A stretch of DNA of 64,000 nucleotides from Gelidibacter salicanalis. Lineage in GTDB: Bacteria > Bacteroidota > Bacteroidia > Flavobacteriales > Flavobacteriaceae. Position numbers and translations under genes: made by a program. Shown in pieces: positions 33,197 through 37,344 of the stretch (position 1 is its first letter; each line of letters opens with the position of its first letter). A model generated the notes under the pieces. That model worked only from the letters and a program-made list of their open reading frames with translations, was not told the DNA's origin and made no database searches. The stretch lies in NCBI RefSeq assembly GCF_016469035.1, contig NZ_JAEHJZ010000004.1:47171-111170 (forward strand). Reading direction: 5' to 3'.

Positions 33197-35565
33197 GCCG
33201 TTTTGGATGTTAAACTTCGTAGCTGGTAAATTTTTTTCATAAGCACTTCCTTATCAACAGGTTTGGTCATATAATCATTCATCCCAATTTCTAACACTTT
33301 TTGACGTGTTTCTTGCATCGCGTCTGCAGTAACTGCAATTATGGGGATGTCTTCAATTTCGGATCCCAAGATCCCGCTGCGTATAATTTGTGTCGCTTCA
33401 TAACCATCCATAATAGGCATCTGCAAATCCATTAAAATAAGATCATAAGCATCTTTTTCAAGAGCTTCCACAGCCTTCTGTCCATTGTCTACAACAACAA
33501 AACTGATGTTTTGCGAACACCCTAACAACTTTTTCATCACCATTTGATTGAGCACATTATCTTCTACAACCAAGATATGCATTTCTGGGAATAAGCTTAT
33601 TGTTAAGACTGATTCGTCCGCATATTCCCTATGTCTAGCAACCACTTCAATAGGCAAGTCGATAAAAACACTAGTGCCTTCTCCTTCCTTGCTTTCAAAT
33701 TTAATTGTTCCTTTAAAAAGGCCCACTAGCTGCCTTACAATCGTAAGCCCAAGGCCAATGCCCCCAATTTGGCGTTTATGATCTAAACGCATTTGACTAA
33801 AACTGTCATACATATACCTTTTCATGTCATCTTTGATTCCAATACCAGTGTCCGCAATATGAAAAGAAAAGCGCGAGTGATTTTTGGACTGAAAGGTACA
33901 TTTTAGAGTGAACTTTACCTGCCCTATAGTTGTGAATTTTACAGCGTTGCACAATACATTATTGATAATTTGCACAAACCGTACAGCATCACCTTTAACA
34001 ATTGCTGGAATCTCAGGATCAATCTCAAAGTGGTACTTTAACCCTTTTCTCTCTGCCTCCAGTTTCCAATTACGGCTAATCTGATTAAGCGCAATTGAAG
34101 GATCAAAATCTTCCATGGTTAACTCCAGTGCATTAGTCTCAATTTTTTCAAAATCTAATATGTCATTGATGTTGCTCAATAAGCTCAACGATGCGTTTTT
34201 GATAATCTCATAATTCTTTTTATGCTCTTGGTCAGAACGGCTACTTAATTGCATTTCTGCAATACCCATAATGGCATTAATAGGTGTTCGTAATTCATGG
34301 CTCATATTTGACATGAAATACGTTTTTAGTTGGCTTATTTCTTCTGAATTTGTCAAAGCTTCTTCTTGGGAAGTCTCTTTTTCTTCTCTCAACCTTTTGA
34401 TAAGATTCGTCATGGATAACGATAAAAATATAACTTCCAAACCACTTCCAAACTTAGCACTGTTAAGCGTATAAAAATTATTCGGCAACAAACTCAAATT
34501 ATTCATGACAAATCCTAAAAGCCCTACTACTAAAAAGAATATTCCAATAGAAAAAAATGAATCAACTGCCATACCTTTGTAGCGCATCACAAAAACCGTT
34601 GTCAGAATTAAAGACAAGCTTATCAATCCGTTTATATTACTCAACGGATACACAAAAGCCATCATTTTTGGGCTTATAAGTACCATTAGAAGTAAAATCC
34701 CTATCACTACATAGAAAAATTTGTACCATTTATAGGAAGAATTGAGCTGTGTTTGGACACTTAAAAAATGCTCGCAATATTTTAGGAGAAAAAAATTGGT
34801 GGCCAATGCCGTAAACAACACAGCTTTATCATTAAAAAAGCCACCATTTGGGAATATATACTGAAAAATAAAGCCGTCCAATGTGCTTTGCAATAAGCCG
34901 ATTGAAAACACATAAATGCCATAGTACAAAAAAGATTTAGCTTTTAAACTTATATAAAAAAATAAGTAGATGATTCCCGCTAAAAAAAGCATACCATAAA
35001 ACAGTCCAAGAAATAACTGTTGCTTATAGTTCATGATCCAGAATGCTGTTTCTGAATACAGAGCCAATGGTAAATTAATTGTTTCACCATCACTCTTTAA
35101 ATGAATATAGAATTGCTGTACTGTTTGAGGGGATAACATAATTTTAAAAACCGTGGAACGATGTGGTATTTGGCGGTCTTCAAACTTAATTTGATCACCA
35201 CTTTGAAAATGGATGATACCAGAGTCTAAAGTTTGATACAAATCAGCTTTGTCAGTGACAGGACGTGCCGTTTCCAAATAATAAACAATTGGGACATCAG
35301 TGATGTTCTGCATTTTAAAACGCATCCAATAATGGTCAGATGTAAACCCAACACTGTGATTTTCAGATTTCAGACTGTTGAATCCTGTAAATGTGTCCTG
35401 TTGTTGAAGAAACTCAGCTAGGCTGTAATCATTTTCTCCAACGTTGATAAAATCAGCGTATTCATAAAGTTCTCCCTTGCTGGTTGAAGAATTATAAATA
35501 AGATTTTGAGCTGACAAGCCAGCACATATAAAATAGGCACAAAGTAGGAGTAGTTTTTGTTTCAT
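33193..35565 (-). CDS. Hybrid sensor histidine kinase/response regulator, 7TMR-DISM type
   Basis: 790 residues. A signal peptide is followed by a periplasmic DISM-type beta domain (to about 180), seven transmembrane helices (about 180-385), a short coiled coil, a HisKA dimerisation domain with the phospho-His in SNMSHELRTPINA, an HATPase domain (GIGLGLTIV), and a receiver with the phospho-Asp in DLILMDLQMPIMDG. The extracellular domain resembles those sensing carbohydrates or small ligands, but the ligand is unknown. No DNA-binding regulator is adjacent, so the output is unclear. Confidence 0.92.
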   Translation of the reverse strand: MKQKLLLLCAYFICAGLSAQNLIYNSSTSKGELYEYADFINVGENDYSLAEFLQQQDTFTGFNSLKSENHSVGFTSDHYWMRFKMQNITDVPIVYYLETARPVTDKADLYQTLDSGIIHFQSGDQIKFEDRQIPHRSTVFKIMLSPQTVQQFYIHLKSDGETINLPLALYSETAFWIMNYKQQLFLGLFYGMLFLAGIIYLFFYISLKAKSFLYYGIYVFSIGLLQSTLDGFIFQYIFPNGGFFNDKAVLFTALATNFFLLKYCEHFLSVQTQLNSSYKWYKFFYVVIGILLLMVLISPKMMAFVYPLSNINGLISLSLILTTVFVMRYKGMAVDSFFSIGIFFLVVGLLGFVMNNLSLLPNNFYTLNSAKFGSGLEVIFLSLSMTNLIKRLREEKETSQEEALTNSEEISQLKTYFMSNMSHELRTPINAIMGIAEMQLSSRSDQEHKKNYEIIKNASLSLLSNINDILDFEKIETNALELTMEDFDPSIALNQISRNWKLEAERKGLKYHFEIDPEIPAIVKGDAVRFVQIINNVLCNAVKFTTIGQVKFTLKCTFQSKNHSRFSFHIADTGIGIKDDMKRYMYDSFSQMRLDHKRQIGGIGLGLTIVRQLVGLFKGTIKFESKEGEGTSVFIDLPIEVVARHREYADESVLTISLFPEMHILVVEDNVLNQMVMKKLLGCSQNISFVVVDNGQKAVEALEKDAYDLILMDLQMPIMDGYEATQIIRSGILGSEIEDIPIIAVTADAMQETRQKVLEIGMNDYMTKPVDKEVLMKKIYQLRSLTSKTA

Positions 35566-35655
35566 GGTTGGGGCCTTTAAACACTTTAAACTTACGAAAA
35601 AACAATAGATATGGTTTAAATGTAAGATTAAATAGCGTTAGAACAACATAAAAAC

Positions 35656-35681
35656 AAAAAAGCAACGCTTTCGCATTGCTT
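35656..35681 (-). terminator. Terminator of tRNA-Ala
   Basis: On the minus strand AAGCAATGC pairs with GCGTTGCTT (one wobble), loop GAAA, followed by T residues. It lies directly downstream of the tRNA. Confidence 0.75.
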
Positions 35682-35687
35682 TTCCCG

Positions 35688-35761
35688 TGGAGAAGATCGG
35701 GCTCGAACCGACGACCTCTTGGCTGCCAGCCAAGCGCTCTAGCCAACTGAGCTACATCCCC
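35688..35761 (-). tRNA. tRNA-Ala(GGC)
   Basis: 74 bases forming a full cloverleaf on the minus strand: acceptor GGGGATG with CTTCTCC (one T-T mismatch), D arm with GCTCAGTTGGCTAGAGC, anticodon stem CTTGG/CCAAG around CTGGCAG (anticodon GGC), and T arm GTCGG/CCGAT around TTCGAGC. The last base is the discriminator A; CCA is not fully encoded. Its first ten bases overlap the end of the GIY-YIG gene upstream. Confidence 0.93.
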
Positions 35762-35994
35762 AAATTATGTTTACGCCACCTTCGACCAGCGGCAGATTTT
35801 AAATACTTTTCTCTCGTTCTAGCCTCTGTTCTCGTTTCAAATTCTTCTAAATGAAACAAATCCCACGGCCGAAATGCTTTCGTTGACTTTACTTGTCCAG
35901 AATTATGTGTTTTCAGTCTCTCTTTGAAATCTGATGACATACCAACATAATAACGGTCAAATTTAATACTATATATGATATAAACAACATACAT
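35752..35994 (-). CDS. Small GIY-YIG nuclease, copy 1
   Basis: 80 residues, one GIY-YIG domain and nothing else. The motif is VVYIIYS...YYVGMS, followed by Arg26 in KERLKTHN and the Glu of REKYLKS, as in UvrC-like and homing nuclease domains. The last codons Gly-Met-stop (GGG ATG TAG) are the first bases of tRNA-Ala, so the gene and tRNA overlap by ten bases. Its ATG lies right behind a broken 5' half of the same tRNA. A second copy at 36089 differs at only two residues. A mobile or homing role is inferred. Confidence 0.8.
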   Translation of the reverse strand: MYVVYIIYSIKFDRYYVGMSSDFKERLKTHNSGQVKSTKAFRPWDLFHLEEFETRTEARTREKYLKSAAGRRWRKHNLGM

Positions 35995-36016
35995 AATGTC
36001 CAGCCTTAAAGCGCTC

Positions 36017-36048
36017 CCCGCCCGTACCGAACGGTACGTTCGGGCGGG
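36017..36048. repeat. Palindrome type A, copy 1 (CCCGCCCG...CGGGCGGG)
   Basis: Outer arms CCCGCCCG and CGGGCGGG (8 bp) with an inner GTACCG/CGGTAC hairpin. It is inserted in the D arm of the broken tRNA and repeated identically at 36354-36385. The GC content is far above its surroundings. Confidence 0.7.
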
Positions 36049-36060
36049 TAGCCAACTGAG

Positions 36061-36089
36061 CCTGCCCCAATGAATTCGTTCAGGCGGGC
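36061..36089. repeat. Palindrome type B, copy 1 (CCTGCCCC...CAGGCGGGC)
   Basis: Degenerate palindrome centred on GAATTC, inserted ten bases into the broken tRNA. Type B copies recur at 36398-36426 and, changed, at 36427-36455; a related piece lies at 50932-50953. Confidence 0.65.
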
Positions 36090-36331
36090 TACATCCCCAA
36101 ATTATGTTTGCGCCACCTTCGACCAGTGGCAGATTTTAAATACTTTTCTTTCGTTCTAGCCTCTGTTCTCGTTTCAAATTCTTCTAAATGAAACAAATCC
36201 CACGGCCGAAATGCCTTCGTTGACTTTACTTGTCCAGAATTATGTGTTTTCAGTCTCTCTTTGAAATCTGATGACATACCAACATAATAGCGGTCAAATT
36301 TAATACTATATATGATATAAACAACATACAT
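36089..36331 (-). CDS. Small GIY-YIG nuclease, copy 2
   Basis: 80 residues, same domain and motif residues as copy 1; the two proteins differ at two positions near the C-terminus (Arg/Lys and Ala/Thr). The DNA of the 337-base unit is nearly identical, so the duplication is recent or kept alike by conversion. It also ends with GGG ATG TAG, here from the broken tRNA copy rather than an intact tRNA. Confidence 0.78.
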   Translation of the reverse strand: MYVVYIIYSIKFDRYYVGMSSDFKERLKTHNSGQVKSTKAFRPWDLFHLEEFETRTEARTKEKYLKSATGRRWRKHNLGM

Positions 36332-36353
36332 AATGTCCAGCCTTAAAGCGCTC

Positions 36354-36385
36354 CCCGCCCGTACCGAACGGTACGTTCGGGCGGG
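36354..36385. repeat. Palindrome type A, copy 2
   Basis: Identical to the type A palindrome at 36017-36048 and at the same position in the second broken tRNA. Confidence 0.7.
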
Positions 36386-36397
36386 TAGCCAACTGAG

Positions 36398-36455
36398 CCT
36401 GCCCCAATGAATTCGTTCAGGCGGGCCTGCCCGAATAAAATTCGTTTAGGCGGGC
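36398..36455. repeat. Two tandem type B palindromes
   Basis: The first (36398-36426) equals the copy at 36061; the second (36427-36455) has diverged (CTGCCCGAATAAAATTCG...). Head-to-tail growth at one insertion site suggests that the element can multiply locally. Confidence 0.65.
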
Positions 36456-36522
36456 TACATCCCCAAATTATGTTTACGCCACCTTCGACCAGCGGCAGAT
36501 TTTAAATACTTTTCTCTCGTTC
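36455..36522 (-). pseudogene. GIY-YIG remnant, C-terminal end only
   Basis: The last roughly 22 codons (REKYLKS..GRRWRKHNLGM-stop) of a third GIY-YIG copy. Homology breaks abruptly at 36522, where unrelated sequence leads to the universal stress protein gene. It marks the far end of the tandem array. Confidence 0.75.
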
Positions 36523-36546
36523 TTCTCGCTTTTATGGTTTGAAATT

Positions 36547-37344
36547 TTATTTTAAACCACCTAAAACCAGCACTGGCAGTGTGGAGCTATTAAAATCTTT
36601 TTTAAGAATGGTATTATTCTCCCAAATCTTCGTAAAAAATCCTCTTTTTCGTCTTACCACACATAGCATATTGGGTTTACTATCCTTATAATTTTCCAAA
36701 ACGCCCTGAAATGTTGTAGCATTTGTACTATATGTTGTGTGGCTTAACAAATCTGCCAACTCTTTATTTATAACAAAGTCGCCTTCATTATAGAACGGAG
36801 TCTGGATCAAAAGTAAATTAATTTTTGAATTGAATTGCCGTTTTATTGAAATTAATGGCGTAAACACATCATCTTTTTTAATGACGGCTGATTTTAAAGC
36901 AATTAAAATAGTGTCTATGGGTTTAAACGTAAATTCCTCTGGTACTATTAGAGCTGGAATATTAGTTTGTTTAATAATTTTACCAGAAGTTTTACCTAAA
37001 TACACTTCCTCCTTAATAGAATTTGTTCTTGGTTCCACCAAGATTAAATCAATATCCGCAGTCTGACAAACAAGTTCTAATGTTGGTATCAATTTCCCTT
37101 TAAAGGTTTTTACAACCACGGCAACACCGGTGGTATCAACTTTAGCGACGTGCGCCTTTAAAAAATCCATACTTTCGCGCTCAATGAGGGCTTCACCCTT
37201 TATGTTGGCACCCGTTTTGGTAGTGACATTAAAGATGTGTACAACATATAACTTAGCGCCAAATGCTCGGGCAAAATCAACTGCATATTGCAAATGGCTT
37301 ACGGCATTTTTTGACGATCCTACTGGAACTAAAATAGTCTTCAT
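36547..37344 (-). CDS. Universal stress protein, tandem Usp domains
   Basis: 265 residues. Two Usp (UspA-like) domains are recognisable: residues 1-140 start with TILVPVGSSKNAVSHLQYA and the second starts near 150. The ATP-binding G-x2-G-x9-G-S/T motif is only partly visible (YLGKTSGKIIKQTNIPALIVP in the first half), so nucleotide binding is uncertain. The family helps cells survive stress and slow growth. It is divergent from the GNAT gene, with interleaved -7 boxes. Confidence 0.82.
   Translation of the reverse strand: MKTILVPVGSSKNAVSHLQYAVDFARAFGAKLYVVHIFNVTTKTGANIKGEALIERESMDFLKAHVAKVDTTGVAVVVKTFKGKLIPTLELVCQTADIDLILVEPRTNSIKEEVYLGKTSGKIIKQTNIPALIVPEEFTFKPIDTILIALKSAVIKKDDVFTPLISIKRQFNSKINLLLIQTPFYNEGDFVINKELADLLSHTTYSTNATTFQGVLENYKDSKPNMLCVVRRKRGFFTKIWENNTILKKDFNSSTLPVLVLGGLK

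Follow-up and report, generated by a model that had tools for sequence, protein, structure and literature searches.

A small GIY-YIG nuclease, a palindrome and a duplicated tRNA part as a candidate homing-type element of bacterial tRNA genes

The window analysed here is a stretch of 64,000 nucleotides from Gelidibacter salicanalis (assembly GCF_016469035.1, contig NZ_JAEHJZ010000004.1, positions 47,171 to 111,170), in which a tRNA-Ala(GGC) gene is accompanied by a tandem array of genes for an 80-residue GIY-YIG nuclease. Read along the minus strand, the array consists of a GIY-YIG remnant, a broken tRNA-Ala, nuclease copy 2, another broken tRNA-Ala, nuclease copy 1 and the intact tRNA-Ala(GGC). 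This order and its coordinates, described in an earlier note on the stretch, were confirmed (Table 1; t numbers are base positions counted along the neighbouring intact tRNA). The two nuclease genes differ at 5 of 243 nt and at two residues. Among the direct repeats, two 300-nt copies share 98% identity at a spacing of 337 bp, and a third copy (36439-36546) is matched over 108 nt with 87-89% identity. Among open reading frames (ORFs) of 40 aa or longer, the array holds the nuclease and short overlapping frames, and the insert has no integrase gene.

The broken tRNA copies that the earlier note had reported are present, but they are not plain 5' halves. Each consists of t1-11, a palindrome A, t11-22, a palindrome B, t23-30 and an imperfect GGCTGG, with two palindromes A in the distal copy and one in the proximal copy. 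The palindromes that split the dead tRNAs are a component absent from that note. A search with the pattern CCCGCCCG-N8,20-CGGGCGGG gave 2 matches in the window and 0 in 100 shuffles. The final GGG ATG TAG of the nuclease gene corresponds to t2-t10 of the next tRNA and not, as had been claimed, to t3 onward, the stop codon being t8-t10 of the downstream tRNA. For a random gene of the size of the nuclease, the chance of lying within 150 bp of a same-strand tRNA is about 0.002, with 31 tRNA genes above the cut-off in this genome. An Rfam search of 35400-36800 at E<=1 returned only the tRNA and one weak small RNA match. A group I intron was rejected, since this search shows no self-splicing intron RNA around the ORF.

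Table 1. Features of the nuclease array at tRNA-Ala (window coordinates).
Feature	Position	Strand	Evidence or remark
Terminator-like stem-loop 3' of the intact tRNA	35656..35685	-	1 found vs 1.3 expected in shuffles
Intact tRNA-Ala(GGC), sole working copy	35687..35761	-	ARAGORN; Rfam RF00005, 63.3 bits at 35688-35761
GIY-YIG nuclease copy 1, 80 aa; last codons and stop = t2-t10 of the intact tRNA	35752..35994	-	ORF, Pfam
Dead tRNA-Ala copy 1: t23-30 (36009-36016) and GGCTGG (36000-36005), beside nuclease start	36000..36016	-	
Palindrome B (CCCGCC class), splits dead copy 1 at t22/23	36017..36048	-	
Dead tRNA-Ala copy 1: t11-22	36049..36060	-	
Palindrome A, splits dead copy 1 at t10/11; one-base overlap with t1-11	36061..36088	-	
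Dead tRNA-Ala copy 1: t1-11, overlaps the end of nuclease copy 2	36088..36098	-	
GIY-YIG nuclease copy 2, 80 aa, 2 aa different	36089..36331	-	ORF, Pfam
Dead tRNA-Ala copy 2: t23-30 (36346-36353) and GGCTGG (36337-36342)	36337..36353	-	
Palindrome B, splits dead copy 2 at t22/23	36354..36385	-	
Dead tRNA-Ala copy 2: t11-22	36386..36397	-	
Tandem pair of palindromes A (36398-36425, 36426-36454), split dead copy 2 at t10/11	36398..36454	-	
Dead tRNA-Ala copy 2: t1-11	36454..36464	-	
C-terminal remnant, third and oldest nuclease copy; query residues 51-80, 80% identity	36458..36547	-	Coordinates converted from contig to window numbering

The nuclease is a bare catalytic domain. Pfam GIY-YIG (PF01541) is matched with E values of 2.3e-17 (copy 1) and 2.1e-17 (copy 2) and covers residues 1-71 of 80. 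The conserved Tyr, Arg and Glu of the GIY-YIG nuclease superfamily are present, Y5, Y16, R26 and E62 being invariant across the 11 members of the alignment A1. The protein matches GIY-YIG-type families only and no HUH (Y1) transposase; its solved relatives by profile are the UPF0213 proteins 1zg2 and 1ywl, then SLX1, and weakly I-TevI (E 0.0013). The median ratio of nonsynonymous to synonymous substitution rates (dN/dS) is 0.21, with 50 of 50 usable pairs (equal length, 60-97% identity, dS 0.05-1.5) below 0.5, which indicates that the nuclease is constrained for function. Three of the 11 A1 members weakly match the PADLOC candidate defence model PDC-S14, which the window protein does not; defence labels on this nuclease family may reflect tRNA elements instead of defence.

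Relatives of the nuclease are common. The window protein finds a match at E<=0.001 in 10/10 Gelidibacter genomes. With a profile of the 11 A1 members, matches were found in 42/60 Flavobacteriaceae genomes at E<=1e-8 (a low-scoring group included), and at E<=1e-17 in 112/299 sampled Flavobacteriaceae genomes and in 156/395 genomes sampled across the phylum. The loci examined in the family and single-protein searches hold 278 distinct GIY-YIG matches, from which a strong set of 199 full-length relatives (at least 60 bits) and a weak set of 42 GIY-YIG genes (below 60 bits) were formed. As loci were picked by score and 85 of the 199 are tandem copies, the proportions below describe the examined set and not all GIY-YIG genes or independent events.

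An intact same-strand tRNA lies within 150 bp of 128/199 strong relatives (130 with two ARAGORN selenocysteine (SeC) or suppressor calls) against 0/42 weak ones, and within 700 bp of 164/199 against 3/42. An opposite-strand tRNA within 700 bp was found for 0/199 strong relatives. Flanking tRNA pieces of at least 28 bits accompany 142/199 strong relatives, 0/42 weak ones and 4/400 random window segments. Such a piece is present in 53 of the 71 strong relatives that have no intact tRNA within 150 bp, and 13 of the other 18, mostly in tandem arrays, have weaker tRNA pieces; the flanks of L045, L047, L069, L070 and L206 show no convincing tRNA trace. The close relatives thus lie at tRNA genes and not mostly away from them, the outcome on which the insertion model of the earlier note depended. 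Further Gelidibacter GIY-YIG genes directly precede tRNA-Pro, tRNA-Asn and tRNA-Leu, each behind a broken copy of the same tRNA, and others follow a tRNA in a mirror-image layout. The same anatomy is seen at Ala, Arg, Pro, Leu, Met, Asn, Asp, Val and Phe tRNAs, to which the phylum search added Ser and Thr. Of the 20 loci first obtained in that search (L326-L345; 16 belong to other families), 19 show an intact tRNA close to the nuclease and on its strand; L330, judged by eye, has a tRNA 3' piece beside it, and L344 has no clear dead tRNA copy.

Several side observations concern these searches. The Gelidibacter GIY-YIG genes L019, L022-L024 and L026, from the low-scoring group, have no tRNA nearby, and four of them (L019, L023, L024, L026) sit amid a different repeat, GTTCTCGATACATCC ... 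TATCGAGAAGCG, as read from the flanks of L019 and L023; this group may possess its own repeat partner. A scan of contigs with the window protein gave the distant relatives L115 (Neomarinimicrobiota), L116 and L117 (Verrucomicrobia), all at a short distance after an intact same-strand tRNA and with no clear broken copy. The contigs of loci L035, L036, L039, L058, L063, L067, L105, L107, L109, L114, L118 and L120 terminate in or near such arrays. Copy numbers are perhaps underestimated, because the units seem to break draft assemblies. At L059 and L211, palindrome-split tRNA copies are called SeC or suppressor tRNAs by ARAGORN, and such copies probably give rise to false tRNA annotations in these genomes.

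Two mirror-image forms of the unit occur, one of which could be assigned to 131/199 units (68/199 without assignment; L205 is of uncertain form, and at L107 intact tRNAs stand on both sides). The 5' form (83/131) runs from the native flank through dead t1-t22, the palindrome, little more tRNA and the nuclease to the intact tRNA. Its nuclease match ends between 8 bases inside and 41 bases before the tRNA in 82/83 units, and at 91 in one. Here the upstream flank of the tRNA precedes both nuclease and tRNA, and the two would share a common transcript. The 3' form (48/131) starts with the intact tRNA, followed by its terminator, the nuclease and a dead tRNA 3' part with the palindrome, which often replaces the anticodon arm. 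The gap from tRNA to nuclease is 33-67 bases in 41/47 measured units and up to 164 in the others; several units hold a second terminator copy. In this form the restored part is the tRNA 3' part plus the terminator.

Most dead-copy pieces match the neighbouring intact tRNA at 100%. Between palindrome and nuclease, the tRNA match stops mostly at t27-t30 and in some relatives at t31-t38. Because these ends vary among relatives, the anticodon loop is no sharp junction. Insertion there as a general rule, as put forward earlier, was not borne out, and the recurrent positions are those of the palindromes. The related proposal of a nuclease with a restoring tRNA copy fits the anatomy, as the insert at tRNA-Asn (see below) leaves a complete tRNA, but it did not foresee the mirror 3' form and missed the palindrome.

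A recognised palindrome is present in the dead part of 120 of 130 representative units, while nine have none and one is masked. The regular expressions were written after seeing the sequences. With the first set, for which an opposite-flank control was run, the palindrome was found on the dead-copy side in 71/83 and 27/48 units against 5/83 and 1/48 on the opposite flank; the extended set was used without this control. Palindromes recur at t22/23, t10/11, t15/17, t29/45, t38/47 and t52/66. The CCCGCC class sits at t22/23 or about t10/11, the CTGCC class at t23/24 or t10, the palindromes of 5'-form Asn units at t15/17, the CCCGA class of the 3' form at t29/45 (anticodon arm replaced) or at T-arm positions, and the TCACGC class at t10, t29/45 and t52/66. 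The TCCGCC class was found at t38/47 or 39/48 in six 3'-form Met units.

Next, the six palindrome classes were compared with the nuclease tree (82 columns, 130 rows; 62/127 inner branches open). The comparison used 119 rows; the 11 dropped are the nine units without a recognised palindrome, L251 (a run of N) and L202, a tRNA-Pro array wrongly labelled as Ser. The classes require 9 changes on the tree, compared with a shuffle mean of 68.7 and a minimum of 61 (n=1000). Shuffling within form gave a mean of 57.5 (minimum 49) and shuffling within the same anticodon a mean of 21.3 (minimum 15). The class is shared with the nearest nuclease in another genome in 111/119 cases, by 11/40 same-genome pairs and by a fraction of 0.216 of all pairs. 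Palindrome class therefore tracks the nuclease tree more than host or tRNA, and a host repeat landing randomly in dead tRNAs was rejected. At tRNA-Arg(TCG), for instance, five units carry the CCCGCC class and six the CTGCC class, according to nuclease clade. Parsimony places 21 changes of tRNA identity (anticodon) on this tree, whose resolution is poor. Since the class is kept across Ala/Arg/Met and Leu/Met/Arg changes, the palindrome seems to travel with the nuclease.

The CCCGCC pattern was also searched genome-wide and is present in 25/299 Flavobacteriaceae genomes, with the backwards control in one. It occurs in 14/22 genomes assigned to the corresponding nuclease clade and in 11/277 others (Fisher p about 3e-12); without the copies that lie in the dead tRNA of the nuclease itself, the counts are 10/22 and 11/277 (p about 1e-7). 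These figures ignore genome kinship, the 22 clade genomes were assigned by hand and more may exist, and G007 is counted among the 277 although it holds a remnant. Contexts were inspected for a subset of the matches, namely 20 stretches and two further groups of places. Among these, three tandem palindrome-split tRNA-Leu units (L311, genome G182), a palindrome-split tRNA-Val beside an intact one (L313), a palindrome-split tRNA-Leu at the end of a contig (L317) and two tandem split tRNA-Met 5' parts before an intact tRNA-Met (L325, genome G004) stand with no nuclease in the stretch examined. The units at L311 and L325 are possibly non-autonomous derivatives. Lone CCCGCC palindromes lie in or beside short repeats (units like TTGTTGA) at L152, L154, L155, L156, L157 and L302-L307, with no nuclease match in the stretches around them. 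The TCACGC pattern occurs in 2 to 10 copies in each of 10 Gelidibacter genomes and is little informative, because it is short and its backwards control is equally frequent in one of them, G000 (4 and 4).

Occupied and empty alleles could be compared at tRNA-Asn. A query of 361 bases spanning the flank 5' of the dead tRNA-Asn in the genome of the window was found in 10/10 Gelidibacter genomes, of which one is occupied, five are scarred and four are empty. In the empty sites (G001, G006, G008, G009), the flank runs directly into an intact tRNA-Asn. In G000 it leads to a dead tRNA-Asn copy, the palindrome, the nuclease and then the intact tRNA. In G002, G003, G004, G005 and G007, a nuclease-free scar precedes tRNA-Asn. 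Between G000 and G008, agreement resumes through the tRNA and the terminator; the pairwise alignment covers this part only, the upstream agreement coming from the flank search. The insert thus breaks up the tRNA region while a complete tRNA persists, in line with the earlier idea of an element that rebuilds its target. At tRNA-Ala, no empty site was found among the 10 genomes. Because empty, occupied and scarred tRNA-Asn alleles coexist, the element has likely been gained and has decayed within Gelidibacter; the four empty sites may never have been occupied or may have been cleanly lost. At tRNA-Ala, the nuclease is present in G000, G001 and G009, a decayed gene in G008 and a C-terminal remnant in G002-G007. 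As a synteny anchor for an empty Ala site, usp was unusable, being found in only 4/10 Gelidibacter genomes (E<=1e-30). A side observation at this tRNA is a 3' part (t28-75) about 7 kb off the intact tRNA-Ala in G007 (L283) and G009 (L289), which might be the trace of an integrase island at the same tRNA gene.

The anatomy, the strand bias, the tandem arrays and their decay, the presence of both occupied and empty alleles, the constraint that acts on the protein and the link between nuclease and palindrome are direct observations. We consider it probable that the unit is a minimal homing-type selfish element of tRNA genes, made up of the 80-residue nuclease, a lineage-typical palindrome and a duplicated tRNA part. 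As in free-standing homing endonuclease elements, an endonuclease gene is present at a site (tRNA-Asn) that is unoccupied in relatives. In such elements, insertion destroys the recognition site of the occupied allele; here the dead copy is split by the palindrome, but an intact tRNA copy persists alongside. The nuclease would nick or cut an unoccupied tRNA gene, most likely between the D and anticodon arms. Recombinational repair with an occupied locus, via tRNA homology on one side of the palindrome, would then copy the unit in, and the side that pairs would give the 5' or the 3' form. One-sided tRNA recombination does not explain the jumps in tRNA identity, for which a break in the new target plus copying of the unit would be needed. 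One tRNA stays whole while the other is split by the palindrome, as the anatomy indicates, and the host would keep its essential gene. From order and strand, the nuclease would be read from the tRNA transcription unit, and 5'-end processing or terminator readthrough would free the tRNA. The palindrome might make the dead copy unfit both for cutting and for pairing in a precise deletion. Finally, the direct repeats would let units expand in tandem and decay, as the arrays, remnants and scars suggest.

A number of points weigh against this reading. Cleavage and mobility are deduced from sequence; none of cleavage, homing and excision was observed. At 80 aa, with the GIY-YIG domain at residues 1-71, the protein is too small for a separate DNA-binding domain, which is usual, although not universal, in free-standing homing endonucleases to recognise a long site. 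The intact tRNA of the occupied allele, which in the 3' form keeps both native flanks, resembles the unoccupied target and would have to escape cutting. With an element or remnant in 10/10 genomes, the Ala element is ancestral in Gelidibacter, so that it has in large part been passed on vertically in this genus. Part of the agreement between palindrome and tree stems from common descent of entire units, and some of the 21 identity changes are switches between anticodons for the same amino acid, which could have arisen by anticodon mutation. CCCGCC-class palindromes are also present at a distance from tRNA and nuclease, either within or next to simple repeats or in other DNA that holds no tRNA pieces, and tandem split tRNAs exist without a nuclease nearby. 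The phage and plasmid collections yielded no relative at E<=1e-5; carriage by phage or plasmid was rejected on these zero matches, and no vehicle between cells is known.

Other explanations were considered. If a nuclease gene had come to stand before tRNA-Ala by chance and been duplicated in tandem with the tRNA 5' part, without any movement, then the 337-bp spacing and 98% identity of the direct repeats over 300 nt, the ancestral Ala site and the nuclease-free tandem split tRNAs would all be expected. Such local duplication alone is improbable in view of the same anatomy at many tRNA identities and in two mirror forms, the unoccupied tRNA-Asn with the same flanks and the palindromes at recurrent tRNA positions. 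Little credence is likewise given to a role in the service of the host, in which the nuclease adjusts tRNA dosage or protects the tRNA gene from other elements. Purifying selection on the nuclease and the weak defence-model matches of three A1 members (but not of the window protein) would suit such a role, but the window array multiplies nuclease and dead tRNA parts instead of a working tRNA, and decay and scars are frequent. A precedent would be SegB amplification in T-even phages, where SegB cleaves inside tRNA genes and each repeat contains a tRNA gene together with segB (PMC13096335).

A different division of labour is conceivable, with the palindrome as the mobile unit, the nuclease as its mobiliser, tRNA genes favoured through hairpin folding and nuclease-free copies as non-autonomous members, similar to REP palindromes and RAYT enzymes. 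Palindrome class follows nuclease lineage, the CCCGCC palindromes are concentrated in 14/22 clade genomes against 11/277 others, split tRNA-Leu (three in tandem), tRNA-Val and tRNA-Met lack a nuclease in the stretches examined, and the nearest solved relatives include the structure-specific SLX1. On the other hand, single units have a palindrome at one side of the nuclease only, and several of the extra copies (both in G182, one in G082 and one in G020) lie within tRNA-like sequence. The genome counts ignore kinship and depend on a clade assigned by hand, and a few pattern matches are other palindromes. RAYT enzymes are HUH transposases linked to REP palindromes, and not GIY-YIG nucleases. Taken together, this explanation is rather unlikely. 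A more novel reading stays tentative and is less likely than not: a phylum-wide class of very small mobile DNA elements, in which nuclease and its own palindrome, as a two-part machine, would move among tRNA genes, take up a part of each target and so keep it whole, work from either end and leave non-autonomous palindrome-split copies without the nuclease. The palindrome would then be a cognate end, making the machine a GIY-YIG counterpart of REP/RAYT.

Integration into tRNA genes is a classic phenomenon. If the homing-type reading is true, a nuclease element that resides inside a tRNA transcription unit and restores one or the other part of the gene would represent a novel mode of occupying an essential gene. 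The element is common in the genomes sampled, at E<=1e-17, both in Flavobacteriaceae (112/299) and in the phylum (156/395), and accounts for broken tRNA copies and for some false SeC or suppressor tRNA calls (L059, L211). A 240-bp enzyme gene with a palindrome partner could also serve to test how specific a GIY-YIG domain is when it lacks a DNA-binding domain. To our knowledge, this palindrome partner has no counterpart among homing-type endonuclease elements.

With REP/RAYT systems, the unit shares short palindromes tied to one lineage of DNA-processing enzyme, and differs by its GIY-YIG nuclease, its tRNA targets and the duplicated target part. Stand-alone UPF0213/Slx1-like GIY-YIG proteins are alike in domain and size (1zg2, 1ywl and SLX1 by profile), whereas the lower-scoring GIY-YIG genes found here have neither a tRNA within 150 bp (0/42) nor tRNA pieces (0/42). 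Prokaryotic Slx1-family members are described as a minimal stand-alone GIY-YIG variant (PMC1564403). Integrase elements in tRNA genes displace a fragment of the tRNA and restore the gene (PMC9897764); in contrast, the present unit of about 340 bp has no integrase and its dead copies are split by palindromes.

Searches of open-access titles and abstract openings, with preprints and most subscription papers outside their scope, found no GIY-YIG element at bacterial chromosomal tRNA genes among the papers listed. The view that no element of this form had been described is not contradicted for the whole, but two systems come close in logic. The mORFs of fungal mitochondria (in atp6, atp9, cox2 and nad3) are endonuclease ORFs inserted together with a copy of a gene end, by which the original end is pushed beyond the ORF and a complete hybrid gene is formed (PMC3630166). 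The present unit likewise combines an endonuclease ORF with a duplicated gene end and a displaced resident end. However, mORFs concern mitochondrial protein genes and only their 3' (carboxy-terminal) ends, and the inserted end is divergent and interpreted there as foreign (PMC3630166), whereas here tRNA genes are involved at either end, the pieces are mostly identical and the dead copy holds a palindrome. The nearest parallel is SegB of T-even phages, a free-standing GIY-YIG homing endonuclease. It cleaves inside tRNA genes and drives the formation of 718-bp units, each made of tRNA-Tyr plus segB, that are repeated in tandem and in which the 5' end of the tRNA shares microhomology with the 3' end of segB; donor alleles are usually poorly cut, according to the same paper (PMC13096335). 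Among phage records, no match to the window protein was found at E<=1e-5, and homing-endonuclease profiles match only weakly. Both systems join a GIY-YIG enzyme to tRNA genes in tandem repeats. SegB is phage-borne and multiplies a whole tRNA, while the unit described here resides in bacterial chromosomes, encodes only 80 residues, multiplies a dead tRNA part, has a mirror form and includes a palindrome.

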